Of a stretch of DNA of 64,000 bases, positions 3,070-52,912 are shown piece after piece. The DNA is from Aquamicrobium zhengzhouense. Lineage in GTDB: Bacteria > Pseudomonadota > Alphaproteobacteria > Rhizobiales > Rhizobiaceae. The stretch is taken from assembly GCF_016124105.1 (NCBI RefSeq), contig NZ_JADGMQ010000002.1, positions 372,001 to 436,000 on the forward strand, in the 5' to 3' direction. A program made the position numbers and the translations under genes. Below the pieces are notes generated by a model that saw nothing but the letters and a program-made list of their open reading frames with translations, ran no database searches and had not been told where the DNA came from. Position 1 is the first letter of the stretch. Each line of letters opens with the position of its first letter.

Positions 3070-3092
3070 CTAATCAACCAAATGTTGATTAA
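3070..3092. promoter_or_regulatory. Phage operator palindrome O1
   Basis: CTAA-TCAAC-CAAAT-GTTGA-TTAA, both inner arms perfect, in the 65-base gap after the tape measure gene. This is the leftmost of the dispersed TCAAC-N5-GTTGA sites. No convincing -10 box follows at the right spacing, so it may act as an elongation block rather than a promoter operator. Confidence 0.75.
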
Positions 3093-3130
3093 GCAGGAAT
3101 GACACTGCCCCATCCACCGGGAGATTTTGA

Positions 3131-6100
3131 ATGCCCCTGAAAAACTTGCCGGTCTGGCCCTTTGAACCGAACTGGACTTCGAGCGTGGGAGAAACGCTCG
3201 AATGGAAGACTGACATCCTTCAGTCGCCCAGCGGTTCAGAGCAGCGCCGTTCGCTTCGTGTGCTGCCCCGCCGCATTCTGGATTTCAGCGTTGCCGCCGA
3301 AGGTCCTGAGCGCTCACTCTTGGATAACCTGCTCAACAGCTTCAGTGCTCAGGATTGGTATCTGCCCATCTGGTATGACGTGCGGATCACCACGGCAGCG
3401 GCCACGGCGACATTCATCCCCTGCCGCACTGAGGGTTTTGTCGTCGGCAACGCGATCTTCGTGGCCGGGAATAGCGTCTACGACTACCAGATCACCGAGA
3501 TCACCGCGATCAGTGGTGCCGGGATCACCGTATCGCCTGCGCTCGTTGTGCCGCCTCCCGTGGGCTCACGTATCTACCCCATGGATGAGGGGCGCTTGCT
3601 GGAAGAGCCTGATCAGACCGCGATCACGGATTCGATCACAACCGCCGAGCCGCAGTTCCTGATCACCAACTATCCCGATGTGATCCCGCCGCCGCCCCGT
3701 GATGCGGGCCCGCTGATCCTGAATGGCCTCATCACCAACGCCTACCACCCCGAGGTCGGGCGCGGTGGGTATTTCCATGAGAACTCGGGCACCTCGGAAG
3801 GCCAGTTCATCTTCATCTACGCGCTCTTCCAAGCCTATGAGCAACTGATCACCGGCACGGCTGAAGAGCAGATCACGGGCCGCTATTACAAGATGCTCGC
3901 GCAGCAGATGCTCGATGCCATGGGACCGGGCGATGGTTATGTGGGGCCAATGCTTCGCCAGCCGATCCCGACTGACGTGAACACGATCACCCTCATGCAC
4001 TGGCTCTTTGCCGGTCGTGGCGACATTCCCGGTCAGGAAATCATCCTGTCCTACGAGATCGCGCCAAGTGCCGGTCGCCTGCGCATCCCGGTGAGCGCCG
4101 GTGGCAACAGGGTGTTCAAGGTCTGGCAAATCTATCCCGGTTCAAGTGACCTGCTCTACGACAGCCCGGTCAGCCCCGCGTTCGATGCAGCCAATCCCAC
4201 GGTCGAGACGCAAATCCTCATCAACGAAAGCGACTGGACGATCAGCGGCAATGACGCGGTGATCACCATTCCGGCTGGCGCACCGTCGAGTGCGACGTGG
4301 AAAGTCGTCTACGGCTTCAACACCGAGCGCATCATCCCGCAGGGCCACGGCTTCGAGGCGTATCCGAACTGGACCCCGATTGAACCGGGCTACTCGGCTT
4401 GCGCGCCCGACACCTTCCGCTGGTTCGAGCAGGCCATGCAGAAGGCCATCCAGTATGATGATCGTCCCGGTATGGCCGCACGCTGGCAGGCCCTTCAACT
4501 CGCCATGCGCCGCACCGCCGTGCGCGGTCAGGCCATCAGCGATTTGCGCGAGGTGCTGCAACTGATGCCGGGGTTCGATCCGATCCCAACCACTGGCGCT
4601 CCTGACGGGATGTATTGCTTCTCCGATCACCCGGCAGCGCAAGGCCCGACTGGCGGTGGCAACCCGAATTGGAAGGGTTACAATTTCTGGTCCCGCACGG
4701 CCACCGGCGCGATCCGTGGTGAAATACCTGATGATGGCGGTCGCGTGCGTCAGGTCCAGATCGGGCGTGGCTTCACCGACACTTGGCGCACGGCCACGGC
4801 TTACCAAGAGGCCGACCAGTATCTCTTCGTGCAGGTCTCAGCCTCGAAGAAGCCCGATGCAGGCGAGAATGAACTTTTCCTCGTCTATGTCTCAAGCACC
4901 ATGGCCTATGACCCGAACACCCGCTGGTTCGCTGATGTCGGCGCGCTGCCGGGGTTCACGCCAACCTCGTCCGGTCTGCACTCCTTCTATCTGCCGCGCT
5001 CGGCCTTCCGCAAACGTGACTGGGGCCCCGGTGGCGAGCCGGTCTGGGGCGACACTCTCCCTGCTGGCACCGAGCTTCAGAACTTTGGCGTGTCGTCCGA
5101 GATGGGCGGTGCCTACAGCATGATGATCGGTGAGATGCGACTTGTCACCGACAACACCGCTGAGGCCACCAAGGGCGCGAAGATGCCTTACTTCCCCGGC
5201 GCGCTTCCCTTCGCGATCAACGCCGACCTGCGCCGCCAGATGTTTGTGGGCTGGAACGGCTCGCCTTTCCACGGCTATCAGCTTCCTGACTTCTGGTGGT
5301 GGCTCGGGAATGACGCCAATGCGGTTCACCCGACGCTGACCGTGGCCGACCTGCCGATTCCGAACGCTGCCGGGGCGCTGACCTTCCCGATCACACCAAC
5401 GGTCGGCGGCGTGACCAAACCCAAGCACGCGCTCCTGATGGAACAGCAACTTCTCTTCCTGCGCGATGCTCAGGCCAAATACGCGGCTGACGGCGGGCCG
5501 AACGGCTTCTTCGCCCATACCTTCGTGCTCAACACCCCGGCGCGCGCCAGCCTCGGCAATCCGCGCCCGCACTCGTGGGTCTATGTCAACGACGATCCCA
5601 ACACCCGCTGGGTCGGCTACCAGACGCGGATTGTCGAGAGCCTTGCTGAACTGATGCTGCTGACCAATGGCGCGGCGGGCTTTGCTGAGTGCCGGTCGCT
5701 CGCGCTGAGCATGTGCGAGGCATGGCTGACCCGGCTCAACGCGATCTGGCCCGATCTCAATGGAAAGGTGGTCAACGGCGTTCGCATTTACGGGATGCCG
5801 ACCGACTATCCTGATCCACGCATCTCGGGTCCGCAGACGCTTTACGAGGAGCCGCACGCCGCCGCCCACATCCTGCGGGCCTGCCTGACCCTGCGTAAAG
5901 CCGGTGTCGGCAATGCCTCGCTGCATAACACGTTGATCGCGCGCTGCTGGAATTATATGGAGATGCTGTGGCGCACCAGTGGTGAGATGCGCTTTACTTG
6001 GTCGCCCGACCCTGCCGCAAAGCAATGGTACGGCTTCTGGCACGGCGATATTCTGACCGCTCTCGCTCTTATGCTTGAAAACCCCTCGCTCCTTCCGGCA

Positions 6101-6844
6101 GGCATTTCGCGCACTACTGTGGCCGAGCGCTTGGTGCAGACGCGCGAATGGATTGAGACTTGGGGAGTCGGAACTTTGTCGATGAATGCTGCCGCTGGCC
6201 TTACGGATGAATACAGGGGCTTCCATGTCCTGACACAACAATCGGACTGGTCTGATCGCGGGGAGCGCGGCCAACAGCGCCTGCTCGATACCTTCGACAC
6301 CGGCAACGGCACGCCCGATCAGTTCGACACCGCCATGCGCCCGTTCCCGACCCAACAATACCACTGGGTTCTCGACGGCTATCCCGATCACGCGCGCTTC
6401 TACAATCTCCTGCACGCTCTGCGCGGGCGGGCTGTGCCGGTCTGGGTGCCGACTTGGATGGACGACATGCGGCCTGTCGCGCCGATCACTGGCGGGGCCA
6501 CCTCGATCCAGATCGCACGCTGCGGCTTTACTGTCGCCGGTGGCCCTCGGCCCGAGCGGGAGGACATCATGATCGAGACCGTGGATGGGCGGCGCTACTA
6601 TCGCCGGATCACCGGCTCGGCCTCTGGTTCGACCACCGAGTTGATCCACCTCGACAACGCGCTCGGCGTGACTCTGAACCCCGACGAGATCATCCGCATC
6701 TCGTTCGTGTCGCTGATGCGCCTCGACCACGACAGCATCGAGATCGAGCACATCACTGATGCAGAAGGCGTGTCCGAAGTGAGCGTCACCTTCCGCGCAG
6801 CCCCCAACACCCGCGTCCCTGACGCCGCCTTCTACGAGGTCTGA
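3131..6844 (+). CDS. Large tail protein with a helical glycosidase-like module inserted
   Basis: A 1,237-residue tail protein lying between the tape measure and BR0599-type genes, the usual place for distal tail proteins. The first 190 residues (WPFEPNW, LRVLPRRILDFSV, WYLPIWYDV) and the last 140 (LPVWVPTW then a beta-rich stretch ending DAAFYEV) look like two halves of one tail-assembly protein. The roughly 900 residues between them are rich in Trp, Tyr and amphipathic helices (FHENSGTSEGQFIFIYALF; FVGWNGSPFHGYQLPDFWWW; RFTWSPDPAAKQWYGFWHGD). This resembles the alpha/alpha-toroid folds of six-hairpin glycosidases, suggesting a surface-polysaccharide binding or cutting module. The tail role is fairly secure. 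The enzymatic fold is my inference from residue pattern. Confidence 0.7.
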   Translation: MPLKNLPVWPFEPNWTSSVGETLEWKTDILQSPSGSEQRRSLRVLPRRILDFSVAAEGPERSLLDNLLNSFSAQDWYLPIWYDVRITTAAATATFIPCRTEGFVVGNAIFVAGNSVYDYQITEITAISGAGITVSPALVVPPPVGSRIYPMDEGRLLEEPDQTAITDSITTAEPQFLITNYPDVIPPPPRDAGPLILNGLITNAYHPEVGRGGYFHENSGTSEGQFIFIYALFQAYEQLITGTAEEQITGRYYKMLAQQMLDAMGPGDGYVGPMLRQPIPTDVNTITLMHWLFAGRGDIPGQEIILSYEIAPSAGRLRIPVSAGGNRVFKVWQIYPGSSDLLYDSPVSPAFDAANPTVETQILINESDWTISGNDAVITIPAGAPSSATWKVVYGFNTERIIPQGHGFEAYPNWTPIEPGYSACAPDTFRWFEQAMQKAIQYDDRPGMAARWQALQLAMRRTAVRGQAISDLREVLQLMPGFDPIPTTGAPDGMYCFSDHPAAQGPTGGGNPNWKGYNFWSRTATGAIRGEIPDDGGRVRQVQIGRGFTDTWRTATAYQEADQYLFVQVSASKKPDAGENELFLVYVSSTMAYDPNTRWFADVGALPGFTPTSSGLHSFYLPRSAFRKRDWGPGGEPVWGDTLPAGTELQNFGVSSEMGGAYSMMIGEMRLVTDNTAEATKGAKMPYFPGALPFAINADLRRQMFVGWNGSPFHGYQLPDFWWWLGNDANAVHPTLTVADLPIPNAAGALTFPITPTVGGVTKPKHALLMEQQLLFLRDAQAKYAADGGPNGFFAHTFVLNTPARASLGNPRPHSWVYVNDDPNTRWVGYQTRIVESLAELMLLTNGAAGFAECRSLALSMCEAWLTRLNAIWPDLNGKVVNGVRIYGMPTDYPDPRISGPQTLYEEPHAAAHILRACLTLRKAGVGNASLHNTLIARCWNYMEMLWRTSGEMRFTWSPDPAAKQWYGFWHGDILTALALMLENPSLLPAGISRTTVAERLVQTREWIETWGVGTLSMNAAAGLTDEYRGFHVLTQQSDWSDRGERGQQRLLDTFDTGNGTPDQFDTAMRPFPTQQYHWVLDGYPDHARFYNLLHALRGRAVPVWVPTWMDDMRPVAPITGGATSIQIARCGFTVAGGPRPEREDIMIETVDGRRYYRRITGSASGSTTELIHLDNALGVTLNPDEIIRISFVSLMRLDHDSIEIEHITDAEGVSEVSVTFRAAPNTRVPDAAFYEV

Positions 6845-6845
6845 T

Positions 6846-7661
6846 ATGAGCTTCGACCAAATCGAACGGTCCAATTATGACGGCAAGCCGATCCTGCTTT
6901 ACGAGTTCGTTCACGGGAGCACGGTCTGGCGCTACAACGGCGGTCAGAAAGACCTCACTCTGAATGGCGTGCTCTATGAGGCGATCCCCGTGTCACACGA
7001 GGGATACAGTATGTCGGGCAACCCCACATCGGACGACATCACCATCAGCATCAGTATGCGGGCTGGCGTTACCGACCTGTTCAACGGCACCCCGCCGTCG
7101 CGCTCGATTCAGGTCTCGATCAGGACCCTGCATTTCGGGGACAAAGAGGCTCCGGTGGTCTGGTCGGGGATCATCAAGTCGATGCGCCGCGCGTCCACCG
7201 TTGAGGCTAAGTTCAACTGCAACTCGCTGCTCTCGACCCTCAATCGAAACGGCCTGCGCCTGTCGTGGCAGCGCGGTTGCCCCCATGCGCTCTATGACAA
7301 CCTGTGCCGCGTGAACCCCGCCGACTATGGCACGGCGGTGCAGGTCAACGCGGTGATCGGAGACCACGTTGAAGCCGCTGGCGCAACAGGTCTGCCGAAC
7401 GGCTATCTGAACGGTGGCTACCTCAGCTTCACCACGGCGCACGGCACCACCGAGACGCGGGCCATTGAGGAGCACTGGCAGAACCGCATTCGTCTGCTCG
7501 GCGCTGCCGATGGCATGACGGTCGGCCAGTGGATCATCGTCTATCCCGGCTGCGACCGCACCTCTGGCACCTGCATCAACAAGTTCAACAACCTCTCGAA
7601 CTATGGGGGTTTCCCCCACCTGCCGAATAAGTCTCCGTTCGACGGCGATCCTGTCTTCTAA
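6846..7661 (+). CDS. Phage BR0599 family (DUF2163-like) distal tail protein
   Basis: Starts just after the upstream stop (TGATATG), so it is probably translationally coupled. The 271-residue protein has the family's N-terminal beta-rich part (LYEFVHGSTVWRY) and its Cys-containing C-terminal signature: CPHALYDNLC, YPGCDRTSGTC and NYGGFPHLPNKSPFDGDPVF. The C-terminal part is the recognisable DUF2163/BR0599 motif found in distal tail or hub proteins of siphoviruses and gene transfer agents. It is usually followed by a small assembly protein and the large tip protein, as here. The conserved cysteines may bind metal or an Fe-S cluster, as known for related tip proteins; that is not proven here. 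Confidence 0.85.
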   Translation: MSFDQIERSNYDGKPILLYEFVHGSTVWRYNGGQKDLTLNGVLYEAIPVSHEGYSMSGNPTSDDITISISMRAGVTDLFNGTPPSRSIQVSIRTLHFGDKEAPVVWSGIIKSMRRASTVEAKFNCNSLLSTLNRNGLRLSWQRGCPHALYDNLCRVNPADYGTAVQVNAVIGDHVEAAGATGLPNGYLNGGYLSFTTAHGTTETRAIEEHWQNRIRLLGAADGMTVGQWIIVYPGCDRTSGTCINKFNNLSNYGGFPHLPNKSPFDGDPVF

Positions 7662-7662
7662 A

Positions 7663-7702
7663 TCAACATTTGGTTGCTCAGACTACCGCATGTTGTTAAA
7701 CC
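7663..7702 (+). promoter_or_regulatory. Operator O2 overlapping a candidate promoter
   Basis: Palindrome TCAAC-ATTTG-GTTGC (7663-7677, one mismatch). Its right arm supplies a -35 TTGCTC (7674-7679), followed after exactly 17 bases by a -10 TAAACC (7697-7702), 28 bases before the next gene. It would drive the tail-tip genes rightward. Confidence 0.55.
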
Positions 7703-7729
7703 TGACCGAAGTGTAGCAGAGGTGCGATC

Positions 7730-10975: not shown

Positions 10976-11030
10976 CAGTGGCGCAGCACACCTTTTGTGG
11001 TATGTTGCGCCAAAGTCCTGAGGATATGGT

Positions 11031-11954: not shown

Positions 11955-11971
11955 CCTTCAAGGAGTGCAAA

Positions 11972-20326: not shown

Positions 20327-20349
20327 TCAGTCAACATTAAGTTGATTAG
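20327..20349. promoter_or_regulatory. Operator O5, with weak leftward promoter
   Basis: TCAAC-ATTAA-GTTGA (20331-20345), arms perfect, flanked by CAG and TTAG. On the minus strand a -35 TTGACT overlaps it, but the -10 at 17 bases (CATCCC) is poor. It sits directly upstream of the GapR-like gene. Confidence 0.7.
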
Positions 20350-24076: not shown

Positions 24077-24099
24077 TCCTTCAACAAAAGGTTGATTAG
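24077..24099. promoter_or_regulatory. Operator O6
   Basis: TCAAC-AAAAG-GTTGA (24081-24095), perfect arms, followed by TTAG. It lies between the lipoprotein start and the previous gene; its right flank supplies the TAA stop of the zinc-ribbon protein. Confidence 0.75.
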
Positions 24100-24275
24100 T
24101 AGGAGCCGGTGCAGACGGGGCAGTTGGACACTTCCTCGCGCTCTTCGTAGCGGGTGACGGGCATAAAGCCGTTTGGATGCGTGTCGAGATCAACAATCTC
24201 GTTCTTCGTCACCGGCACTTGCACGACCTCGACGCGAAGGGCGCAGCCGCAACGCTGGCATTTGTGATCGCTCAT
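24096..24275 (-). CDS. Small zinc-ribbon protein with internal start
   Basis: A 59-residue protein nested at the 3' end of the HAD frame. Its ATG at 24275 lies four bases after GAGGAGA, a strong ribosome site, which suggests independent translation. CQRCGC near the start and CPVC near the end form a zinc ribbon around a short beta-rich middle (DTHPNGFMPVTRYEEREEVS). It resembles small Zn-ribbon proteins common in phages. Confidence 0.6.
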   Translation of the reverse strand: MSDHKCQRCGCALRVEVVQVPVTKNEIVDLDTHPNGFMPVTRYEEREEVSNCPVCTGSY

Positions 24276-24935
24276 GATTCTCTCCTCGGTTGCTTCATCA
24301 ATATTTGGTTGAATAGAAGGGATGAAGTCAAGACGGATTGCGTCCAGATCGTCGATCCAGATCACGCCTGTCGCAGTATCGCCAGCTTCGTGTAGCCGGT
24401 TGTGCGACCGGCGCAGGCAATAGGACCTGATGCCATTGATCCACCCTGCTTGCGCGTGCTCAAAGTTGTCTTCGACGAAGACCACATCGCCCGGATCGCG
24501 GTTGCGCGTGAACTCGTAGAGATAGGTGAACTTGGAGCCGCCGAGCGGGAGCATGGTGATCTGGTTGAATACCTCGCTCAGCGCATCTTCAACGCCCAGC
24601 GGGAACTCATTCAGTAGATTCTGCACTCGCGCCCGCTGGACCGCACGATTGTCGCCACAGGCGGTAAGCACGCTGATCGTGTGGCCCGCATTGCGCAGGC
24701 CCCAGATAAGCTCCCGCGCGCCGGGACGGGCTTTCAACTGGCCGAAGCGTTCGCTTGCGTTGAACTCGCGGACCCACATGGCGGCTTCCATCTGCGAGCA
24801 GTGCAGCCATTCGGCAAGGCACCATGACTTCGGGCCCGCGCGGTCGATCTTGGTGCCATCGGGGTCGAGCCAGTTGAGGAAACCGGCCTCCCAATCGAGC
24901 AGCACGTCATCGCAGTCGAAGATGAAATGGGTCAT
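24096..24935 (-). CDS. HAD-family phosphatase fused in frame to a zinc-ribbon protein
   Basis: The ATG at 24935 begins MTHFIFDCDDVLLDW, HAD motif I with its paired Asp. SVLTACGDNRAVQRA gives motif II and GDVVFVEDNFEHAQAGW gives motif IV, as in small 5'-nucleotidase or phage HAD enzymes. The HAD part ends near DAIRLDFIPS (about 212 residues). The frame then continues without a stop through operator O7 and into a 59-residue zinc-ribbon protein that has its own start. In other junctions the palindrome usually brings a stop, so this fusion looks like stop loss. Whether both a long fused and a short protein are made is unknown. Confidence 0.7.
   Translation of the reverse strand: MTHFIFDCDDVLLDWEAGFLNWLDPDGTKIDRAGPKSWCLAEWLHCSQMEAAMWVREFNASERFGQLKARPGARELIWGLRNAGHTISVLTACGDNRAVQRARVQNLLNEFPLGVEDALSEVFNQITMLPLGGSKFTYLYEFTRNRDPGDVVFVEDNFEHAQAGWINGIRSYCLRRSHNRLHEAGDTATGVIWIDDLDAIRLDFIPSIQPNIDEATEERIMSDHKCQRCGCALRVEVVQVPVTKNEIVDLDTHPNGFMPVTRYEEREEVSNCPVCTGSY
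24294..24316. promoter_or_regulatory. Operator O7, inside a fused coding frame
   Basis: TCAAT-ATTTG-GTTGA (24298-24312), one mismatch, flank ATAG. Unlike the others it lies within an open frame, encoding SIQPNID of the HAD fusion, 22 bases upstream of the zinc-ribbon start. Confidence 0.65.
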
Positions 24936-24940
24936 GGTAT

Positions 24941-25156
24941 TCACTTCTTTGGGGGCGGCGGCAGGCGCTTGGCCGAGGTGGTGAACTCCTTCGTGCAGGT
25001 CGGGCACGGGATGCTCAGATAGTCGCCGTCCCGCTGATCGGGGACGTACCGGGCGTCAGCGCGCAGGAAGGTGAACTGGCAGTCGCAGTTGCGGCAGGTG
25101 GCCGTGTAAGCCCGCTCTTCCGGTAGCGTGCCGGGGCGGATGATCTGGACAGTCAT
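24941..25156 (-). CDS. Zinc-ribbon protein
   Basis: A 71-residue protein with two Cys pairs, TCRNCDCQF and PCPTCTKEF, enclosing a beta-rich middle (RADARYVPDQRDGDYLSIPC). It is a compact zinc ribbon of the type seen in small phage proteins. The end is basic and Pro-rich (KRLPPPPKK). It overlaps the gene upstream by four bases. Confidence 0.7.
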   Translation of the reverse strand: MTVQIIRPGTLPEERAYTATCRNCDCQFTFLRADARYVPDQRDGDYLSIPCPTCTKEFTTSAKRLPPPPKK

Positions 25157-27295: not shown

Positions 27296-27369
27296 CTAAT
27301 CAACATTATGTTGAATGAGAAAGGGCGGCAAGATGATTCCTGCCGCCCAGTCAATAAAAAGTTGATTAC
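27296..27369. promoter_or_regulatory. Operator pair O8 and O9 flanking a terminator
   Basis: O8 is TCAAC-ATTAT-GTTGA (27300-27314, perfect). O9 is TCAAT-AAAAA-GTTGA (27351-27365, one mismatch). Between them lies a hairpin, GGGCGGCA (27323-27330) with TGCCGCCC (27341-27348), followed on the minus strand by TTTCTC. The stem should end leftward transcripts leaving the glutaredoxin gene. Confidence 0.75.
27323..27348 (-). terminator. Rho-independent terminator after glutaredoxin gene
   Basis: An 8-bp perfect GC-rich stem with a 10-base loop, then TTTCTC on the minus strand. It separates the RNR-glutaredoxin transcript from the dUTPase transcript. Confidence 0.7.
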
Positions 27370-29706: not shown

Positions 29707-29725
29707 ACCACATTTAGTTGAATAG
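29707..29725. promoter_or_regulatory. Degenerate operator O10
   Basis: ACCAC-ATTTA-GTTGA-ATAG. The right arm and flank are intact and the left arm has two mismatches. It lies between the 117-residue tail-bearing gene and the RNR gene. Confidence 0.45.
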
Positions 29726-31402: not shown

Positions 31403-31425
31403 ATAGTCAACATTCGGTTGAACAG
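31403..31425. promoter_or_regulatory. Operator O11
   Basis: TCAAC-ATTCG-GTTGA (31407-31421), perfect arms, between the ACP start and the preceding gene's stop. It shares its spacer with O12. Confidence 0.75.
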
Positions 31426-32645: not shown

Positions 32646-32668
32646 TTAATCAACATTCGGTTGACTGA
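32646..32668. promoter_or_regulatory. Operator O12
   Basis: TCAAC-ATTCG-GTTGA (32650-32664), perfect arms. TTGATT on the minus strand and TTGACT on the plus strand could each serve as -35 boxes, but neither has a strong -10. It marks the start of the leftward middle operon. Confidence 0.7.
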
Positions 32669-37506: not shown

Positions 37507-37550
37507 ACCTTAGGTTTTTGTCCCTAGCTAGTCAACTGTTTGTTGATTAG
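37507..37550 (-). promoter_or_regulatory. Promoter-operator cassette 1 (O13)
   Basis: Operator CTAG-TCAAC-TGTTT-GTTGA-TTAG (37528-37550) overlaps the minus-strand -35 TTGACT (37530-37535). The -10 TAAGGT (37507-37512) is exactly 17 bases away. This promoter drives ArdA. Confidence 0.8.
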
Positions 37551-38253: not shown

Positions 38254-38297
38254 ACTATGCCGGGTTGTCCCTAGCTAGTCAACTGTTTGTTGATTAG
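38254..38297 (-). promoter_or_regulatory. Promoter-operator cassette 2 (O14)
   Basis: Operator CTAG-TCAAC-TGTTT-GTTGA-TTAG (38275-38297), same as cassette 1. Minus-strand -35 TTGACT (38277-38282), 17 bases, -10 CATAGT (38254-38259). The 40 bases downstream of the -10 are also nearly the same as in cassettes 1 and 3. Confidence 0.8.
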
Positions 38298-39384: not shown

Positions 39385-39428
39385 ACTATGCCGGGTTGTC
39401 CCTAGCTAGTCAACCGATTGTTGATTAG
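39385..39428 (-). promoter_or_regulatory. Promoter-operator cassette 3 (O15)
   Basis: Operator CTAG-TCAAC-CGATT-GTTGA-TTAG (39406-39428). Minus-strand -35 TTGACT (39408-39413), 17 bases, -10 CATAGT (39385-39390). Third copy of the roughly 90-base regulatory unit. Confidence 0.8.
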
Positions 39429-41172: not shown

Positions 41173-41216
41173 ACTTTCCCAGCTTTCAGTTTCTCAGTCA
41201 ACCAAATGTTGATTAG
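41173..41216 (-). promoter_or_regulatory. Operator O16 with leftward promoter
   Basis: TCAAC-CAAAT-GTTGA (41198-41212), perfect arms, TTAG flank. Minus-strand -35 TTGACT (41196-41201), 17 bases, weak -10 GAAAGT (41173-41178). It ends right beside the primase stop codon. Confidence 0.65.
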
Positions 41217-43935: not shown

Positions 43936-43958
43936 GGACACAACATTTAGTTGACTGG
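43936..43958. promoter_or_regulatory. Operator O17
   Basis: ACAAC-ATTTA-GTTGA (43940-43954), one mismatch, between the RHH promoter and the end of the next upstream gene. Confidence 0.65.
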
Positions 43959-44287: not shown

Positions 44288-44367
44288 CACCGCCCCGCCC
44301 GTGGGCTCAGCTTGAGCCATACCTGATCGAGGAACAGGGAAAATCTCCAATCAGGTATGAGCTTCAT
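44287..44367 (-). CDS. 26-residue protein nested between overlaps
   Basis: MKLIPDWRFSLFLDQVWLKL then SPRAGR. The ATG overlaps the Cro-like stop (ATGA), and its stop overlaps the next ATG (TGATG). The opening MKLIPDWR is typical of small phage holin-like membrane proteins, cut short here. Translation is inferred from the double overlap. Confidence 0.45.
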   Translation of the reverse strand: MKLIPDWRFSLFLDQVWLKLSPRAGR

Positions 44368-44675
44368 CCGAGGAACCCCATGAAGTCGTCAGCCGTGAGG
44401 GGTTGGAAGTCCTCGGGGCGCGCCTTGCTTTCCGCCGACAGCTTGACCAGCGCGGGGATGCGCTTGGGCGGAATACGGTTTCGGTCGAACCACTTATAGG
44501 CGGCTTGGTAGCTCACGCCGAGGTATTTCGCGAGGTCATAGGTGCGCAGAATACCATCGTCGTCCAGCCAATCCGGCAGGCCGCGAATCAACAGGTTGTT
44601 GAGCTTGCCGAGGTCTTTGGCCTTGCGCGGGTTCTTCGGCTCGGGTCGGTCGATCTCGTGATTTGCGAGGTCCAC
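44364..44675 (-). CDS. Cro-like helix-turn-helix regulator
   Basis: A 103-residue protein with a helix-turn-helix in its middle (GILRTYDLAKYLGVSYQAAY then KWFDRNRIPPKRIPALVKLS), as in Cro/CI-type regulators. It is divergent from the rightward replication operon, with operator O18 and its promoter in between. That is the classic place for a lambda-Cro-like switch protein. The end (LTADDFMGFLG) lacks the acidic Leu tail. Confidence 0.7.
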   Translation of the reverse strand: MDLANHEIDRPEPKNPRKAKDLGKLNNLLIRGLPDWLDDDGILRTYDLAKYLGVSYQAAYKWFDRNRIPPKRIPALVKLSAESKARPEDFQPLTADDFMGFLG

Positions 44676-44729: not shown

Positions 44730-44773
44730 CCATTCAACTACTTGTTGACTGCTCAACCGAATCCCCATAAGAC
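44730..44773 (+). promoter_or_regulatory. Operator O18 and main rightward early promoter
   Basis: TCAAC-TACTT-GTTGA (44734-44748), perfect arms, overlaps the -35 TTGACT (44745-44750). After exactly 17 bases comes the -10 TAAGAC (44768-44773). It should start the 44.8-52.8 kb replication operon, so repressor binding here would block early expression. Confidence 0.8.
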
Positions 44774-44815: not shown

Positions 44816-45325
44816 ATGGCTCTTGAGATCGAGATCACCAAACTGACCGCCGCTGTCGAGAAGCAGAACACCCTGCTCGAAAAGCTGCTTACGGCTGGCG
44901 CGAAGAACACCGCTGCCGCCGCGACCGCCTCGGCTGACAAGGCTGAAGCCGCTGCCCCGGCTGCTGAAGACAAGCCGAAGACCACCAAGGCGAAGACCGA
45001 AAAGCCCGCCGCTGAAACCAAGGCTGAGACCAAAGCCGAGGCCCCCGAGATCACCGTCGAAACCCTCGACGCGAAGTTCCGTCCGTGGCTGGCTGAGTTC
45101 GAGAAGGGCCACCCCGAGCGCGTTGCCCGCCAAGCCAAGTTCAAGGAAATCCTCGGCAAGCTCGGCGCTGAGAAGATGTCGGCCATCGAAGATGCCAGTA
45201 AGCTCGCCAAGCTCGACAACTGGTTCGAGACCAAGGCGAAGACGTGGGATGAAGGGCACGGCGTTGGCCGCTTCGCCGCTGATCCCGAAGAAGGTGGTGA
45301 CGAAGGCGGCGATGACGACCTCTGA
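44816..45325 (+). CDS. Ala/Lys-rich acidic-tailed protein, first of the early operon
   Basis: A 169-residue protein: an N-terminal helix (EITKLTAAVEKQNTLLEKLL), a long Ala/Lys/Glu linker like histone H1 tails (KPKTTKAKTEKPAAETKAET), a folded helical domain (LDAKFRPWLAEFEKGHPERV; KEILGKLGAEKMSAIEDA) and an acidic end (EEGGDEGGDDDL). The folded part recalls small phage proteins encoded before recombination genes. The final DDDL joins it to the shared-tail set. It is followed by a strong terminator, so it may be made in excess over the rest of the operon. Confidence 0.65.
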   Translation: MALEIEITKLTAAVEKQNTLLEKLLTAGAKNTAAAATASADKAEAAAPAAEDKPKTTKAKTEKPAAETKAETKAEAPEITVETLDAKFRPWLAEFEKGHPERVARQAKFKEILGKLGAEKMSAIEDASKLAKLDNWFETKAKTWDEGHGVGRFAADPEEGGDEGGDDDL

Positions 45326-45345
45326 GCCCTTCTGACTGCCACCAA

Positions 45346-45381: not shown

Positions 45382-45399
45382 GCTTTTGAGGGTGTGAAA

Positions 45400-46707
45400 A
45401 TGCTTCACGAAATCACCAAGGCCCCGCTGAGGCTGATGCCGAAAGACGAGTTCGACGAACTCCTCGGCTTCAAGAGCCCGCACTATCGGGGCTTCATCCG
45501 TCGCCCATCTGACGCGGCCCGCTGGCTGCGCTGCCACGCCTCACTGCGCTTCACCGCCAGCTATCCCAAGGACGAGTCGAGTGAGTGGGCCGACGAGGGC
45601 ACCGCCGCCCACGCCGTTCGCGAGGAATGCCTCTACTGGGGTTATGACGCCTATCACTTCATCGGCAGCAAGCAGCACATCAACGGGCGCACCTTTGAGG
45701 TCGATGCCGACATGGCCGATCACCTTCAGCAGGGCATCGACGAGATCAGGCAATTCTCAGGCCGGATGGTCGTCGAGTACCGCGTCGATACGACGAACTG
45801 GGTCGGCTATGACGAGCACGGCAAGCCGCAGGGCGGCACCGTGGACTGCGCCGTCATCGGTCAGGAACTCGTGGTGCTGAGCGACCTGAAATACGGCTTC
45901 GATCCGGTGAGCCCGGTCGAGAACGAGCAGCAGATGCTCTATGCGCTGGCCTTCTATCATCAGGTGGTCAAGCACATCTCGAAGGCCACCAAGTTCCTGA
46001 TCATCATCGACCAGCCCCGCATCCCGCACGGCGGCGGCTACTGGTATGTCGAGCTTGCCGATCTGGAAGCGTTCGGGGAGCGCGTGAAGGACGCGGCCTA
46101 CAAGACCGAGCAGGAAGACGCCGCGTTCAACCCGTGTGTCGAGGCGTGCAAATGGTGTCCTGCGGCCAATGTCCCCGGTCGCCCCGGTGGCTGTGAGGCG
46201 CACGCGAACTCGAACATCGCCCACCTCGATCTCAGCGTGGACAAGCTCGATGTTGAGCCCGGTGAGCCGCTGCCGCTGCCGCCCGTCGAATCGCTGACGC
46301 CCGAGCGACTGCTGACGATCCACGAGAACCGGAAAGCCATCGAGAAATTCCTCGACTATTGCTCGTTCATGGCGCTTCAGCACGTTCTTCAAAATGGCCC
46401 TACGGCGGGAAAAAAGGCCGTTTTGGGCAAGGGTGGTAACCGCAAATGGCGCTCGGAAGGGGCTGCTGAAGCCTTTATTCGAGAACAACTTCCTTCTTCC
46501 TCGCCATTCAACATGAAGTTGAAAAGCCCCTCGCAAGTTGAGAAAGAAGTTGGTAAGAAGTATCAGGTCCCCGGCGCACTCGTCGAGCGGAGCGAACCAA
46601 AGCCGATCTTAGTGCCGGTGGAGGACGCCCGCGAAGCCATCACCCCTCTGAACGATGAGTTCGAGGATTACGGCGACGACGAGTTCGAGGACTACGGCGA
46701 TCTCTGA
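45400..46707 (+). CDS. DUF2800 PD-(D/E)XK exonuclease with EDYGD tail
   Basis: Start set at ATG 45400 (GAGGGTG upstream) rather than a GTG two codons earlier. The 435-residue protein has the DUF2800/RecB-like nuclease core: WLRCHASLRFTAS, EGTAAHAVREECLYWG, then GGTVDCAVIGQELVVLSDLK with the metal-binding Asp and DLK, and ENEQQMLYALAFYHQV. A four-Cys cluster is hinted by CVEACKWCPAANVPGRPGGC. It probably resects dsDNA for phage recombination with the ssDNA-binding protein encoded next. It ends EFEDYGDDEFEDYGDL, two copies of the motif seen in the primase linker. Confidence 0.85.
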   Translation: MLHEITKAPLRLMPKDEFDELLGFKSPHYRGFIRRPSDAARWLRCHASLRFTASYPKDESSEWADEGTAAHAVREECLYWGYDAYHFIGSKQHINGRTFEVDADMADHLQQGIDEIRQFSGRMVVEYRVDTTNWVGYDEHGKPQGGTVDCAVIGQELVVLSDLKYGFDPVSPVENEQQMLYALAFYHQVVKHISKATKFLIIIDQPRIPHGGGYWYVELADLEAFGERVKDAAYKTEQEDAAFNPCVEACKWCPAANVPGRPGGCEAHANSNIAHLDLSVDKLDVEPGEPLPLPPVESLTPERLLTIHENRKAIEKFLDYCSFMALQHVLQNGPTAGKKAVLGKGGNRKWRSEGAAEAFIREQLPSSSPFNMKLKSPSQVEKEVGKKYQVPGALVERSEPKPILVPVEDAREAITPLNDEFEDYGDDEFEDYGDL

Positions 46708-46746
46708 TCGCCTTTCAAACGCGAAACCTTAAAACGGAGAGACGAC

Positions 46747-47415: not shown

Positions 47416-47424
47416 TCGCGTGAG

Positions 47425-47447
47425 GGGCGGGCTTCGGCTCGCCCTTT
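47425..47447 (+). terminator. Hairpin, possible terminator
   Basis: GGGCGGGC-TTCG-GCTCGCCC (47425-47444) followed by only three T. Weak terminator or processing site, directly before operator O19. Confidence 0.5.
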
Positions 47448-47469
47448 CATTCAACAATTAGTTGATTGG
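47447..47469. promoter_or_regulatory. Operator O19
   Basis: TCAAC-AATTA-GTTGA (47451-47465), perfect arms, right after the hairpin. A promoter using its -35 would have its -10 inside the next gene, so this site fits an elongation block better. Confidence 0.7.
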
Positions 47470-47477
47470 ACCTCAAC

Positions 47478-47720: not shown

Positions 47721-48304
47721 ACCACCTGATGATCGACATCGAGACCCTTGGCACGCGGCCCAACGCCCCGATCCTCTCGATTGGCGCTGTGGTCTTTGAC
47801 CCCAACACCGGCAAGCAGGGCGCAACCTTCTACCGCGCCATCGACCCGGCCAACGCCTTCCTGCATGGCGTGCCTGACGGCGACACCTTCAAATGGTGGA
47901 TGGAGCAGTCCGACGCCGCCCGAAAAGCCGCTGTCGCTGGCAATACGCTGCTCGCGGACGCGCTAACCGATCTGACCAAGATGCCGGTGGTCTGGAAAGA
48001 CGTGCAGGTCTGGGCGAACGACCCTGACTTCGACGTGACGATCCTGAACTACGCCTTCCACAAGGTCCTCGGCCAACTGGCCCCGTGGCGCTTCTGGAAC
48101 ACCCGGTCCTGTCGCACCATCGCAGAGGTCGCAGGCAAGCGCCCGCCCAAGCCGCAGGGCGTCCACCACAACGCGCTCGACGACGCCAAGCATCAGGCTA
48201 AGTGGGTCAGCGACATGTGGCAGGGGCTCCGTGGCAAGAAGGCCACGCCCGCCACCAAGCCCGCCGCGCCCGCGCCGGTCGCCGCTGACGACGATCTCCT
48301 CTGA
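47717..48304 (+). CDS. 3'-5' exonuclease (RNase H-fold, DnaQ-like) with DDDLL tail
   Basis: A 195-residue DEDD-type exonuclease. Exo I is HLMIDIETLGTRPNAPILSI (Asp-x-Glu), WWMEQSD follows, Exo II lies in NDPDFDVTILNYAFHKVLG, and Exo III in HHNALDDAKHQAKWVSDMW. It resembles phage and T4 DexA-like exonucleases that degrade host DNA or proofread. After a Pro/Ala/Lys linker (KKATPATKPAAPAPVA) it ends ADDDLL, one of the clearest copies of the shared tail. Confidence 0.88.
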   Translation: MNHLMIDIETLGTRPNAPILSIGAVVFDPNTGKQGATFYRAIDPANAFLHGVPDGDTFKWWMEQSDAARKAAVAGNTLLADALTDLTKMPVVWKDVQVWANDPDFDVTILNYAFHKVLGQLAPWRFWNTRSCRTIAEVAGKRPPKPQGVHHNALDDAKHQAKWVSDMWQGLRGKKATPATKPAAPAPVAADDDLL

Positions 48305-48376
48305 ACTGACACCGGGAGCCTTCGGGCTCCCCCTCGCAAATGGCCCTCCTTTGTCTGGGGGCTGCATGAGGCACCT

Positions 48377-50446
48377 ATGGCTACGCATATTTTTGACTGT
48401 GAGGTCGCCCCCAACGCCTTTGGCTTGGGGATCAAACGTATCGAGGATGGACGCAAGGTCTGGTTCGAGTTCAGCGAGTGGGAAGATTTCGACCGCGATC
48501 TCGTGCGCCGCGCGCTCAAGAAGAACCTCAATGTGGGCTTCAACTCGGCATCGTTCGATCTGCCGCTGATCTACATGGCGCTCGATGGCGCGTCGAACCA
48601 AGACCTCATGGACGCTGCGACCCGGATCATCCAAGAGCGGATTCCGGCATGGCGCGCGGACCAAGAGTTCGGCATCCACATCCCCAAGATCGACCACATT
48701 GACCTCTTCGACACCAACCCCAGCGTTAAGAACGGCCTGAAGGCGCTCGCCGGTCGGATGCACGTCAAGCTGCTGCAAGACCTGCCGTTCAAGCCCAACA
48801 CGCCGCTGACGCGCGAGGAATGGCTCGAAGGCCGGGACTACTGCCTCAACGGCGACCTCGAAGCGACCCACGCCCTGTTCGACCGGATGCGCGAGCCGAT
48901 CCAGCTTCGCGAGGTGATGCGCCAGCGCTACGACACCATCGACCTGCGCTCGAAGTCCGACGCTCAGGTGGGTGAGACGATCATCAAGACCGAGGTGGAG
49001 CGCAAGACAGGCAACCGCCTGAAAAAAGCTGTGATCGCTGAGGGGACCGCCTTCCGCTACGAGGTGCCTGAGTGGATGCGCTTCAAGACGCCCATGATGC
49101 AGCAGGTGCTTGAGACCATCCGCAACACGGACATCGTGGTCGGCAAGGGCGGCAAGACCCAACTGCCAAAGTCGTTCTCCGAGTTCGAGATCGTCTTCGA
49201 TGGTCTGGGCTACACGCTCGGCATCGGCGGCATTCACTCGACCGAGGCCAACCGCTCGGTCCATTCCGACAACCAGTATGTGCTGATCGACGCGGACGTG
49301 GCCTCGCAATACCCCTCGATCATCATGAAGCTCGGGCTGTTCCCCAAGGCCACGGGCCGAGAGTTCCTGCCGGTCTACAAATCCATCATCGACGCCCGCC
49401 TTGAGGCCAAGCGCGCCAAGGACAAGATCACCGACAAGGGCCTGAAGATCGCCATCAATGGCTCGTATGGCAAGCTCGGCTCAGCCTATTCGACGCTGTT
49501 CGCGCCGCATCTGATGGTCGCCGTCACCCTGACCGGCCAGTTGTCCCTGCTGATGCTGATCGAGGAAGCCCACCTGCGCGGCATCCCCGTGGTCAGCGCC
49601 AACACCGATGGCGTGGTGTTCAAATGCCCGCGTGACCTGTGGAACGGCTTTGTCATGCGCGACGGCAAGCCGACTGACCGACTGGCCCCGAGCCCGATCC
49701 AAGACATCATCGAGTGGTGGGAAGGCGTCACCTCCTTCAACCTCGAATTTGCCGAGTACCGCTCGATCTACAACCTCTCGGTCAACACCTACATGGCGAT
49801 CAAGCCCGATGGCTCGTTCAAGCGCAAAGGCGCGATTGCGAACCACTGGCGCGAGGACCTGCCGTGGGGCGGCAAGAACACCGACTATGACCCGATCCGC
49901 TCGGGCCTGATGAAGAACCCGCAGATGACGATCTGTGCCGACGCGGTGCTCGGCTTCCTGCTGCACGACATCCCGATTGAGAAGACCATCCGCGAGTGCC
50001 GGGACGTGCGCGAGTTCATCACCGTGGTCAATGCCGATGGTGGCGCGACTTGGGGCACCGGCGATCCGATCTACGAGACCCGCGAGCGTGTCGATAACAA
50101 GGGCAAGACCATCAAGAGCGAAATCCTCGTCGGCGTCGAAGGCGAGCAGTATCTCGGCAAGGTGGTGCGCTATTACTGGTCCAAGGCCGGGGCTCCGATC
50201 CTCAAGGTCAAGGGTCACCACGCCACCGGCTCGCGGCCCAAGGTGTCCAAGACCGATGGGTGCCGCCCGATCATGGTGCTGCCCGACGATCACGCTGTCC
50301 CCGATGACCTCGATTACAGCCGATACATCAGTGAAGCCAATCAGATACTCAGGGAGATAGGCTTTTACGACCGCGAGGAGGCCCCCGCCGCAGCGAGCCC
50401 GTGGGAGGCATTCCTTTGCCAAGCTATTCAACAAAAGGTTGATTAA
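48377..50446 (+). CDS. Family B-type DNA polymerase with 3'-5' exonuclease
   Basis: A 689-residue replicative polymerase. Exonuclease motifs: D7-x-E9 in IFDCEVAP, NVGFNSASFDLPLI, and YCLNGDLEATHALFDRM. Polymerase motif A is D305-A-D307-VASQYPSII. Motif B is KIAINGSYGKLGS. Motif C is SANTDGVVF (N409-T-D411), where most family B enzymes read DTD. This Asn form is a known branch of phage polymerases, and I expect it to be active. The start follows GAGG. The stop overlaps the VRR-NUC start and lies at operator O20. Confidence 0.9.
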   Translation: MATHIFDCEVAPNAFGLGIKRIEDGRKVWFEFSEWEDFDRDLVRRALKKNLNVGFNSASFDLPLIYMALDGASNQDLMDAATRIIQERIPAWRADQEFGIHIPKIDHIDLFDTNPSVKNGLKALAGRMHVKLLQDLPFKPNTPLTREEWLEGRDYCLNGDLEATHALFDRMREPIQLREVMRQRYDTIDLRSKSDAQVGETIIKTEVERKTGNRLKKAVIAEGTAFRYEVPEWMRFKTPMMQQVLETIRNTDIVVGKGGKTQLPKSFSEFEIVFDGLGYTLGIGGIHSTEANRSVHSDNQYVLIDADVASQYPSIIMKLGLFPKATGREFLPVYKSIIDARLEAKRAKDKITDKGLKIAINGSYGKLGSAYSTLFAPHLMVAVTLTGQLSLLMLIEEAHLRGIPVVSANTDGVVFKCPRDLWNGFVMRDGKPTDRLAPSPIQDIIEWWEGVTSFNLEFAEYRSIYNLSVNTYMAIKPDGSFKRKGAIANHWREDLPWGGKNTDYDPIRSGLMKNPQMTICADAVLGFLLHDIPIEKTIRECRDVREFITVVNADGGATWGTGDPIYETRERVDNKGKTIKSEILVGVEGEQYLGKVVRYYWSKAGAPILKVKGHHATGSRPKVSKTDGCRPIMVLPDDHAVPDDLDYSRYISEANQILREIGFYDREEAPAAASPWEAFLCQAIQQKVD
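50424..50446. promoter_or_regulatory. Operator O20, inside the polymerase 3' end
   Basis: TCAAC-AAAAG-GTTGA (50428-50442), perfect arms; it encodes the last residues and its flank supplies the TAA stop. The next gene starts at once, so no promoter fits here. Confidence 0.7.
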
Positions 50447-50748
50447 TGATGAGTGTCAGGGAAATCCCCGGCGTTGAGAAGCCGGTCGTTCGCTATGCCT
50501 TGGCGCGCGGCTGGAAGCTCGGCTGGAAGCTGCGGATCGACGGTCGCAATGGTTCGCCGGATCGGTGGTTCCTGCGCAACGGCGTCTGGCTCGTGATCGA
50601 GTTCAAGCGCCCCGGTGGCAAGCTGCGCCCGCAGCAGGTTCTCAGGATCAAGGAACTGCGTGAGAACGGCCAGCCGGTCCATGTGATCGACAACGCCGAC
50701 GTGGGGCGCGCCCTGATCGACAGCTTTGATCAGGAGGACCTACTGTGA
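50446..50748 (+). CDS. VRR-NUC nuclease with QEDLL tail
   Basis: A 100-residue VRR-NUC domain protein: KPVVRYALARGWKLGWKLRI, then GSPDRWFLRNGVWLVIEFKR with the Asp and Glu-x-Lys active residues, and a Gly-Lys-x-x-Gln-Q segment (GGKLRPQQVLRIKELRENGQ). Such enzymes are structure-specific nucleases that resolve branched DNA, often beside an SNF2 helicase as here. It ends DSFDQEDLL, the shared tail. Its start overlaps the polymerase stop. Confidence 0.88.
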   Translation: MMSVREIPGVEKPVVRYALARGWKLGWKLRIDGRNGSPDRWFLRNGVWLVIEFKRPGGKLRPQQVLRIKELRENGQPVHVIDNADVGRALIDSFDQEDLL

Positions 50749-51311
50749 GCAAGCGCCTTCCAACAAAAGCAGAGCTTTGTCTATCGGTCGAATCTCTGCG
50801 TGATCTCCTGACATACGATTCACTCAGCGGCGAACTGCTCTGGAAGCATCGCGCTCAAGCACGCACCGAGTGGAATAACCGCTACGCAAACACTGTCGCA
50901 GGAACCATCGTCCACGGTGAGGCTATTCAGGTTCGCATTACCGTGGACGGGAAACCTAAGTATTTCCGAGCGCACAGAATCGCATGGGCGCTAATCAACG
51001 GCGCGTGGCCTGATCACATCGTAGACCACGAAAATTGCGATCCATCCGATAACCGCTGGGTCAATCTCAGGGCTGCGTCGATCAGCGAAAATAACACCAA
51101 CCGCAGTGTCTTGGCCGGTGAGGTTCCCTTCAAGGGTGTCTACCGCATCCGCAAATCTGGGCGTTACGGCGCTCAGATCAAAAAGAACAGGCAGCACACA
51201 TGGTTGGGTCTGTTCGACACGCCCGAGGAAGCCGCTCGCGCCTATGACCGCGCTGCTATTCAACTTCATGGTGAATACGCCAAGACCAATTCAAGTTTGG
51301 GCCTGCTATGA
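50745..51311 (+). CDS. HNH-AP2 homing endonuclease
   Basis: A 188-residue mobile nuclease with GTG start (GTGA overlap with the VRR-NUC stop). The HNH core is HIVDHENCDPSDNRWVNLRA with ISENNTNRS. An AP2 DNA-binding domain follows (GVYRIRKSGRYGAQIKKN, then WLGLFDTPEEAARAYDRAAI). This HNH-AP2 pairing is typical of phage homing genes. It lies between VRR-NUC and the SNF2 helicase and has slightly lower GC than either. It overlaps the helicase by four bases, so the operon remains intact. Confidence 0.88.
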   Translation: MSKRLPTKAELCLSVESLRDLLTYDSLSGELLWKHRAQARTEWNNRYANTVAGTIVHGEAIQVRITVDGKPKYFRAHRIAWALINGAWPDHIVDHENCDPSDNRWVNLRAASISENNTNRSVLAGEVPFKGVYRIRKSGRYGAQIKKNRQHTWLGLFDTPEEAARAYDRAAIQLHGEYAKTNSSLGLL

Positions 51312-52798
51312 CACTCTGGGAACTGATTCTTCGTAACGCCCTTGGCTCAACCGCGCTGACCCCGACCTCGGGCAAGCGCCCTGAGTCGATGATGCGTTCC
51401 TATCAGCGCTTTCTAGCTGACAGCATCACCGAACTCCCTAACGTCCTTGCTGCGGCAGAAATGGGAATGGGCAAGACGGGTGCAACCCTGACCGGCGTGC
51501 GCCGCGTGCTGCGTGCGAACCCCGGCTGGCGCTGCCTGATCGTCGCGCCGCTTGAGGTCAGCCGCAATACTTGGCCTGACGAGGTGCATGAGTGGGAGCA
51601 TCTTGAAGACCTGACCTATACCGTGGTCTGCGGCACCGAGAAGGAACGGCTCGCAGCGCTCGCGGTCGATGCCGACCTGACCATGATCAACCGCGAAAAT
51701 TTGTTGTGGCTCTGGAAGACGATCAAGGGCAAGGCGGGCTGGCGCTGGCAGGTCTTGGCCTATGACGAATCCTCGCGCCTCAAAGGCTTCACCGTCCGCA
51801 CCAAGGGCAGCGAAAAGACCAAGCCGCAACTGTCCGAGTTCGGCGTGCTGGTGCAGGCGCGCCCGCTGATCAAGAAGGTGATTGAGCTTTCCGGCACCCC
51901 GGCTCCGAACGGCGTCTGGGACCTCGGCGGGCAGGCGCGCATCCTGTTCGGCCATTCCAGCCCGCTGGGCGAGAACAAGAACCGCTTCAAGGCGCGCTAT
52001 TTTGACGAGAACCAATACACCTATGCCCTGACACCCAAGCCGGGGGCGGTGGACGAGATCATGGGGCACATGAAGCCGGTGATGATCGGCCTGCGCTCGC
52101 AGGATTACATCGACCTGCCGCCGCTCTACTTCAACCCGGTCTACGTCAAGCTCAGCCCCAAGCTGATGACGCAATACCGCGAGTTCGAGGAGACGCTTTA
52201 CAATCAGGAGCACGACATCGAGGCCGTCAACAAGGGCGTGCTGACCAACAAGCTCCTGCAACTGGCGAATGGCGGGCTCTACAAGGAGCTTCCGCCCGAT
52301 CCCGACGACCCTGACGCCAAGCCCAAGCGCGAGGTGATCTTCGTCCACGACCTCAAGCTCAAGGCGCTCGAAAGCATCATTGCCGAGGCGGCTGGCAAGC
52401 CGGTGCTGATCGCCTATAGTTTCAAGTTCGATAAGGCCCAGATCAAGAAGCGCTTCAAGGATGCGGTGTTCTTCGACGAGGAGCCCAATTTCGTCAAGAA
52501 ATGGAACAAGGGTGAGATCAAGATCGGGGTCTCGCACCCGGCCTCGATTGGGCATGGCCTCAACCTGCAACATGGCGGGCACATCCAAGTTTGGTTCGGC
52601 CTTAGTTGGTCTTTGGAGCTTTGGGATCAGTTCAACCGGCGACTGGCGCGCCCCGGCCAGAAGGCTCCAACGGTGTTCGTCCATGTGATCATGGCGAAGG
52701 GGACGGTGGATGAGCGCCAATACGAGTCCTTGCAAACCAAGGGGATCACGCAGGACGACATCACCGAGCGCATCCGCGTCCGCTCAATCCCCACCTGA
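51308..52798 (+). CDS. SNF2-type DEAD/DEAH-like helicase
   Basis: A 496-residue superfamily 2 ATPase. Walker A AAEMGMGKTGATL, motif Ia LIVAPLEVSRNTWPDEV, motif II VLAYDESSRLKG (DESS rather than DEAH), motif III ELSGTPAPNG, and C-terminal motifs IGVSHPASIGHGLNLQHGG and LWDQFNRRLARPGQ. Phage SNF2 proteins of this length sit with VRR-NUC nucleases and probably remodel forks or replication proteins. It ends the early operon and carries no acidic tail. Confidence 0.9.
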   Translation: MTLWELILRNALGSTALTPTSGKRPESMMRSYQRFLADSITELPNVLAAAEMGMGKTGATLTGVRRVLRANPGWRCLIVAPLEVSRNTWPDEVHEWEHLEDLTYTVVCGTEKERLAALAVDADLTMINRENLLWLWKTIKGKAGWRWQVLAYDESSRLKGFTVRTKGSEKTKPQLSEFGVLVQARPLIKKVIELSGTPAPNGVWDLGGQARILFGHSSPLGENKNRFKARYFDENQYTYALTPKPGAVDEIMGHMKPVMIGLRSQDYIDLPPLYFNPVYVKLSPKLMTQYREFEETLYNQEHDIEAVNKGVLTNKLLQLANGGLYKELPPDPDDPDAKPKREVIFVHDLKLKALESIIAEAAGKPVLIAYSFKFDKAQIKKRFKDAVFFDEEPNFVKKWNKGEIKIGVSHPASIGHGLNLQHGGHIQVWFGLSWSLELWDQFNRRLARPGQKAPTVFVHVIMAKGTVDERQYESLQTKGITQDDITERIRVRSIPT

Positions 52799-52856
52799 GC
52801 TATTCAACTATGTCTTGGAAATTTCGGGGGTGAGACCCCGAAATTCCTATTTCTAA
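52799..52856. terminator. Hairpin and degraded operator after the helicase
   Basis: A degraded operator (TCAAC at 52804, right arm CTTGG) is followed by a near-perfect stem, GGAAATTTCGGGG (52817-52829) with CCCCGAAATTCC (52836-52847). There is no long T-run, so it may be a two-way terminator or an RNA-processing stem. Confidence 0.55.
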
Positions 52857-52912
52857 TCAACTGACGCTTGACAGGAGTGAATCTAAGGCGCATTCAATCA
52901 ACCAGATGTTGA
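52857..52912. promoter_or_regulatory. Operators O22 and O23 at the repressor gene
   Basis: O22 is TCAAC-TGACG-CTTGA (52857-52871, one mismatch) and its right half contains -35 TTGACA. O23 is TCAAC-CAGAT-GTTGA (52898-52912, perfect), 15 bases before the repressor ATG. Two operators at the repressor's own promoter are what autoregulation predicts. The -10 is unclear. Confidence 0.7.

Follow-up and report, generated by a model that had tools for sequence, protein, structure and literature searches.

A dispersed palindrome as the probable operator network of a CI-like repressor in a Casjensviridae-type prophage of Aquamicrobium zhengzhouense

Phage-wide sets of repressor sites are a kind of system already known from L5, phiC31, the cluster A mycobacteriophages and SPBRE/MrpR. 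Such networks are best known from the actinobacterial L5-like and phiC31 phages and from SPbeta. The cluster A phages L5, Bxb1 and Trixie have up to about 30 genome-wide repressor sites, many away from promoters, and their repressors and site motifs diverge together (PMC6550527). These stoperators are asymmetric and largely share one orientation, and monomeric binding has been reported for the L5 repressor (PMC6550527, PMC4557955). L5 and phiC31 have 18-30 dispersed sites, with the repressor gene downstream of the structural genes (PMC4557955). In SPbeta, one repeated element, SPBRE, lies in promoter regions across a large prophage and is bound by the master repressor MrpR (PMC10516654). Here we describe a set of dispersed sites in prophage A of Aquamicrobium zhengzhouense, most of which lies in a 64,000-nucleotide stretch of DNA (the window; C12:372001-436000 of a 4,071,397-base genome in 29 contigs). 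A palindrome with a 15-bp core, TCAAC-N5-GTTGA, and a weaker CTA/TAG extension would serve as operator for a CI-like repressor, the product of 52928-53689. About thirty copies would silence the element at many points, and one or two at the repressor's own promoter would give autoregulation. We put the probability of this explanation at about 0.88; we infer binding, repression, immunity and any roadblock from sequence.

The repressor sites of phiC31 are inverted repeats. Like those of phiC31 (about 18), the sites of prophage A are dispersed and palindromic, but phiC31 belongs to a different phage group and the likeness is one of description only. Like cluster A phages, which have about 24-30 dispersed sites, prophage A has 30 sites scored by a weight matrix, and five more elements have 15-38. 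The original prediction had named stoperators as a precedent. The site number fits, but the palindromic form differs from the asymmetric L5 stoperators (PMC4557955), since the prophage A sites are inverted repeats, many containing a -35 box. The fold of MrpR is that of a tyrosine recombinase and its motif is 15 bp long, whereas the prophage A repressor is a helix-turn-helix (HTH) protein with about three times as many sites. The half-site resembles that of phage 434, (A/T)CAA against ACAA (434 OR: ACAA-N6-TTGT), in 15 versus 14 bp, so the palindrome, first presented as novel, is not isolated. In 434, however, the operators cluster at OL and OR and the cI and cro genes are divergent (OL657227), while prophage A has about 30 dispersed single sites and its repressor and Cro-like genes are about 8 kb apart. 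We found no earlier report of the palindrome network in the set of open-access papers searched. What is new is the palindromic network in Casjensviridae-type phages, the operator dialects linked to the recognition helix, the -35 boxes within operator arms and a C-terminal module that may be nuclease-like. The same strategy, with a palindromic site, would be at work in phages of this type that infect alpha-, beta- and gammaproteobacteria.

The window contained 16 exact copies of TCAACN5GTTGA, compared with a mean of 0.03 and a maximum of 1 in 100 dinucleotide-preserving shuffles. With at most one mismatch there were 25 places (the 16 exact and nine more), against 1.57 expected. The 14 exact and five one-mismatch places listed originally were all real, but 44588 and 46508 had been missed among the former and 16886, 29324, 37330 and 51260 among the latter; of these four, only 51260 passed the weight matrix, which was built from the 17 exact prophage A sites. 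Genome-wide there were 19 exact copies. Prophage A holds 17 of them, one of which lies to the left of the window at -11015, and the other 2 are outside the prophage. A control pattern read backwards also occurred twice in the whole genome, so the copies outside the prophage are at background level, and an equal motif density in host sequence was not seen. The claim that the motif is absent from the second segment (segment B) and the chromosome held for the window. The matrix found 30 sites spanning -14106 to 52898, 23 in the window and seven to its left, and none in the rest of the 106-kb region C12:350001-456000, where a Markov model expects about 1. The sites had been said to stop exactly at the repressor gene; this is right for the right side, but on the left they continue for about 14 kb beyond the window towards the integrase. 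A second matrix, made from six elements, also gave 30 sites in prophage A, 29 of them identical by coordinates. Chance or host background as the source of the palindromes was ruled out by the shuffle, genome and matrix counts.

The four positions before TCAAC were C in 56%, T in 56%, A in 82% and A in 50% of the 17 sites after symmetrisation. The outer CTAn arms are a consensus and are not fixed. As originally noticed, nearly all sites were at gene junctions: 14 of the 17 exact sites and 25 of the 30 matrix sites lay in intergenic gaps, which make up 10% of the prophage (p 5e-12 for the exact sites, with a simple gene caller of our own).

The repressor gene (52928-53689, plus strand) encodes 253 amino acids. 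The protein matched phrog_2967, a transcriptional regulator family (E 5e-21), gave a Pfam HTH_3 match slightly below the cut-off, and was 51% identical to the regulator of Rhizobium phage RHph_X2_30 (X2_30). A PDB sequence search returned HTH matches only (best E 0.001), and the predicted model has an N-terminal HTH and a beta-rich C-terminal domain. The recognition helix is predicted at codons 64-72 (53117-53143, plus strand). When 434 CI (record OL657227) was aligned residue by residue to the family hidden Markov model (HMM; 17.3 bits in a one-sequence search), its Gln28 fell opposite Ala64 of the prophage A protein. The exact site at 52898-52912 is 15 bp upstream of the repressor start and is a putative autoregulatory operator; X2_30, AchV4 and the element N133 have a site placed likewise. 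A one-mismatch site at 52857-52871 shares the gap between the helicase and repressor genes.

Most related regulators likewise had a site nearby. Fetched loci account for 59 of the 73 dereplicated regulator rows, and 58 of these loci had sufficient upstream DNA. With the regulator start placed approximately, 48 codons before the helix, 53 of the 58 loci had a site either at this start or up to 300 bp upstream, compared with 6.8 expected from their own site density.

The outer base of the site also went with the recognition helix. A helix of the form S/T-x-E-[AGS]-V-R-K/R-W/Y was present in 64 of the 73 rows. Where x was Gln (33 rows), the base outside CAAC...GTTG was A 137, T 102, G 26 and C 15 times; with any other x (31 rows), it was T 239, G 14, A 13 and C 12 times. 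None of 5000 row permutations reached this difference, although with too few changes on the tree it is a strong association and not a significant independent contrast. The row L114, which carries Ser within the Gln clade, had T nine times and A never, while its sisters L128 and L134 had A and T three times each. Gln28 of 434 CI contacts the outer A of its operator. Wharton and Ptashne reportedly showed in 1987 that changing this residue to Ala shifts the preference of 434 to T. A repressor dimer would read the half-site T-C-A-A much as 434 CI reads A-C-A-A, and helix residue 64 (Ala here, Gln28 in 434) would go with the outer base. In related viruses the site varies together with the helix by which the silencing protein reads DNA, so the palindrome network is very probably, on this sequence evidence, a switchboard that keeps the virus dormant. 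Such operator dialects would allow the 434-derived residue-base rule to be tested on natural repressor-operator pairs, and their series predicts which phages of the Casjensviridae-type group share immunity.

A further variant was seen in Rhodobacter phages, whose regulator helices read x-E-T-V-R-K-W-[TN]. TCAC-N7-GTGA occurred 15 times in RcCWillis (1.36 expected), once upstream of the regulator, and five times each in RcMrWorf (1.35) and RcWhiteOak (1.38). This pattern retains the 15-bp register with one base changed per half-site. Separately, TAGTCAAC-N-GTTGACTA was considered as a respaced Rhodobacter operator and dropped, as the palindrome at the RcCWillis regulator promoter is TTCAC-N7-GTGAA. 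In RcCWillis (L040-L041, 58979-65257), TAGTCAAC-N-GTTGACTA lies about 20-30 bp before TCAC-N7-GTGA in several places, and these stacked palindromes may reflect two regulators or a promoter element.

We counted inverted 5-mers de novo, at spacings of 0-15, in prophage A, 11 phage records and five genome regions, all 17 of which carry a related regulator. TCAAC-N5-GTTGA was the top palindrome in six: prophage A (17), X2_30 (11), AchV4 (9), N133 (6), G004 (8) and G236 (8). CAAC-N5-GTTG was favoured among 4-mers in SS2019XI and PS6, and RcCWillis, RcMrWorf, RcWhiteOak, AH2, V16, V18, G034, G066 and G208 had other palindromes or none of weight. The 59 exact sites of the six elements were made into a matrix, which was applied to all elements but V16 and RcWhiteOak with three Markov copies each for the expectation. 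It found 30 sites in prophage A, 38 in X2_30, 28 in AchV4, 23 in N133, 15 in G004 and 31 in G236, the last two regions including host DNA. There were 18 each in SS2019XI and PS6, 13 in V18, 5 in G034, 4 in RcCWillis and 2 in RcMrWorf; across all elements scanned, 0.0-1.3 were expected. In the placement test, for which the G004 and G236 regions were trimmed, the sites of the six elements lay mostly in gaps (25/30, 31/38, 22/28, 17/23, 14/14 and 24/30; gap fractions 0.09-0.14). Ten phages that have a related terminase but gave no match to the regulator had 14 copies of CAACN5GTTG in total (0-3 each), near the 9 of the backward control. An empty regulator search in these ten is weak by itself, and none of them is among the listed records with a regulator match (40 of 43). 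First scans with the single regulator sequence had found no relatives in genome contigs or viral contigs. Conservation, the site at the regulator promoter, the association with the helix and the near-background counts without the regulator together support the proposal that the 52928-53689 protein probably reads a phage-wide site set.

Two minor observations arose from this comparison. Phage AH2 (L066-L068) has six copies of GACAC-N9-GTGTC (0.04 expected), at 5954, 6647, 8416, 10994, 12976 and 57620; none was found in the upstream region of its regulator. In L083, L084 and L024 (the match in G004), the stretch matched to the regulator includes an in-frame stop codon, so that it may be broken or may only end early.

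Several results weigh against the operator-network explanation. Five of the 58 regulator loci (L100, L101, L102, L106 and L146) have no site at the regulator, and in 11 of the 17 elements TCAAC-N5-GTTGA is not the top 5-mer palindrome. AH2, G066 and G208 have 3, 1 and 0 matrix sites despite a related regulator. Three of the 17 exact prophage A sites lie inside called genes. The rows with Gln nonetheless hold the 102 T given above, and the Gln group is roughly one clade, with about three changes and two independent pairs; the outer base changed in the same way in 1.1 of the two pairs on average and never in the opposite way. A Cro-like protein may compete for or read the same sites. Finally, the authors of AchV4 obtained no stable lysogens (PMC7996906). 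The operator series also marks out phages, such as AchV4, whose behaviour is lytic although they have a full set of repressor sites. AchV4 gp78 is a homologue of the prophage A repressor (43%), is encoded between helicase and integrase genes, and was called lambda-CI-like by the authors (PMC7996906). A term search of the main text of that paper returned no operator, palindrom, inverted, TCAAC or GTTGA.

The strongest rival holds that all functional sites are ordinary promoter operators without any block of elongation; those with no recognisable promoter would belong to weak promoters, to promoters not of the sigma-70 type or to the points where transcription starts. We give it a little less than an even chance. 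We oriented each site by the nearest gene start within 150 bp and dropped other sites; 'late' was assigned by hand in three elements. Overlap with -35 boxes at many sites favours this rival. For 30 exact sites, the best fixed -35 offset was +11 of the site, the arm itself (18 strong versus 4 mirrored). Among non-late sites at least 45 bp from a start, 21 of 47 had a good -10 box 16-18 nt from the downstream TTGA, against 1 of 47 mirrored (Wilcoxon p 5.6e-5). The offset and spacing indicate that many promoters take their -35 box from the palindrome itself. A general promoter scan gave no excess of sigma-70-like sites (5 versus 6.3; 6 versus 4.0), so this claim rests on the site-centred test. 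Bound repressor would cover the -35 box, the downstream TTGA of the palindrome, and exclude RNA polymerase. By contrast, the 21 late-operon sites showed no promoter preference (3 versus 1), and neither did the 64 non-late sites less than 45 bp from a start by -10 score (3 versus 5). Even so, these start-proximal sites likewise favoured a downstream TTGAC (16 versus 7), and among 19 exact ones a -35 box starting at -18 was slightly preferred, which would place the -10 box inside the site. Sites occupied 6 of 8 late gaps of at least 20 bp in X2_30, 5 of 12 in prophage A and 2 of 5 in AchV4. At late-operon and near-start-codon sites the repressor may block or slow RNA polymerase as stoperators do; the promoterless sites may be such roadblocks or start-site operators. 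The stoperator action originally proposed may apply to the late and start-proximal sites, while many non-late sites, with the -35 box in their downstream arm, look like ordinary operators.

The Cro-like protein (44364-44675, minus strand; phrog_35 transcriptional repressor, E 6.7e-5) could instead be the main reader of the sites. It has an HTH, its relatives occur in many of these elements, and sites 44588 and 44734 are in and before its gene. Lambdoid Cro and CI use common operators. However, its helix varies under the same motif, being SYQA in prophage A, SYQN in N133, SPWA in AchV4 and SDKA in G004, whereas the motif-sharing elements all have the repressor helix x-E-[AGS]-V-R-K-W-F, whose x residue varies with the outer base. 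With such a variable helix, the Cro-like protein is a poorer candidate for the protein that the motif follows, and we consider this rival improbable. Still less credible are non-regulatory repeats (packaging, replication, partition or restriction-related), which would account for numerous copies across both arms, but not for the strong intergenic bias, the fixed position relative to promoter boxes, the presence of a copy at 53 of 58 regulator promoters or the near-background counts in related phages without the regulator.

The predicted C-terminal fold of the repressor, which may be nuclease-like (PD-(D/E)XK), was unexpected. Unlike that of 434 CI, the C-terminal domain is not predicted to be of the known CI kind. 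Pfam searches with five C-terminal parts gave a single match, well below its cut-off, and no match to the S24 peptidase domain. Among the folds listed for the C-terminal part, the matches were to other folds than S24, with none to an S24/LexA C-terminal domain. With the D...(D/E)xK motif placed tentatively, D143 is present in 85% and Q152 in 59%; at position 154, Lys is not among the four commonest residues. We suggest, as an unlikely model, that the repressor joins a 434-type HTH to a catalytically dead PD-(D/E)XK-like dimer or tetramer module, which bridges about thirty palindromes into a looped, silenced prophage, with at least three dialects (TCAA, ACAA and TCAC, in one 15-bp register) through recognition-helix changes, which would form a natural series of immunity specificities. 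Should the nuclease-like fold hold, the repressor would join the recombinase-like MrpR as a phage repressor built on an enzyme fold.

The best phage match of the terminase, polymerase and regulator was in each case X2_30, of the Casjensviridae (48.9%, 46.8% and 51.1%). Judged by these homologues and its integrase, prophage A is a temperate Casjensviridae-type phage. The integrase gene is at -16282 to -14969, adjoining a tRNA-Met (cat) gene. The regulator gene follows the helicase gene. X2_30 and AchV4 have the same order, with an integrase gene shortly after. No common word of 13 bp was found between the integrase side and 53-75 kb that could mark an attachment site, and the 25-base 3' end of the tRNA has no second copy in the genome at up to two mismatches. 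Only matches of 10-12 bp were present between the two sides. One of these, GATACCGTC at 53713, is unsurprising by chance, as one such match occurred in 17 of 100 shuffles. To the right of the repressor, 53872-55799 (minus strand) encodes an integrase-like partial protein (54108-54698) and an excisionase/AlpA-like regulator (55028-55288). This segment may be what is left of another element, or it may be the true right end.

The other sites are distributed along the window as follows. In the late structural operon, an exact site at 3074-3088 lies in a gap 42 bp before a gene start and a one-mismatch site is at 7663-7677. Exact sites at 20331-20345, 24081-24095 and 41198-41212 lie 25, 12 and 79 bp upstream of minus-strand gene starts. 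The one-mismatch site at 24298-24312 is within the called gene 24096-25007; this call, from our own gene caller, may be wrong, since a minus-strand ATG with GGAGAG lies about 22 nt downstream of the site. Exact sites at 27300-27314, 31407-31421, 32650-32664 and 47451-47465 are in gaps, the first shared with a one-mismatch site at 27351-27365. Weak sites occur at 29707-29721 (matrix score 10.0) and, with one mismatch, at 43940-43954 (10.7), upstream of the primase gene. The exact site at 44588-44602, within the Cro-like gene, has a low score (12.9), and that at 44734-44748 lies between this gene and the divergent 44816-45325. Exact sites are also found within the exonuclease gene (46508-46522) and overlapping the end of the polymerase gene, 3 bp upstream of the next gene (50428-50442). 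The one-mismatch site at 51260-51274 is close to the 3' end of 50745-51311.

Three exact sites are associated with minus-strand promoter boxes. At 37532-37546, the arm holds TTGACT followed after 17 nt by TAAGGT, and the promoters TTGACT-17-CATAGT begin within the sites at 38279-38293 and 39410-39424. These three share a leader block on the minus strand, with ...TTGACTAGCTAGGGACAA...ATAGTCAGAATCACA in two of them, and X2_30 (L009, near 1533) has a similar stretch, TATAGTCGGAATCACA, after its site. The block looks like a repeated early promoter. Outside the prophage, beside chromosomal genes, 59405-60214 (plus strand) encodes a GH108 endolysin-type protein with Glyco_hydro_108 and peptidoglycan-binding domains.

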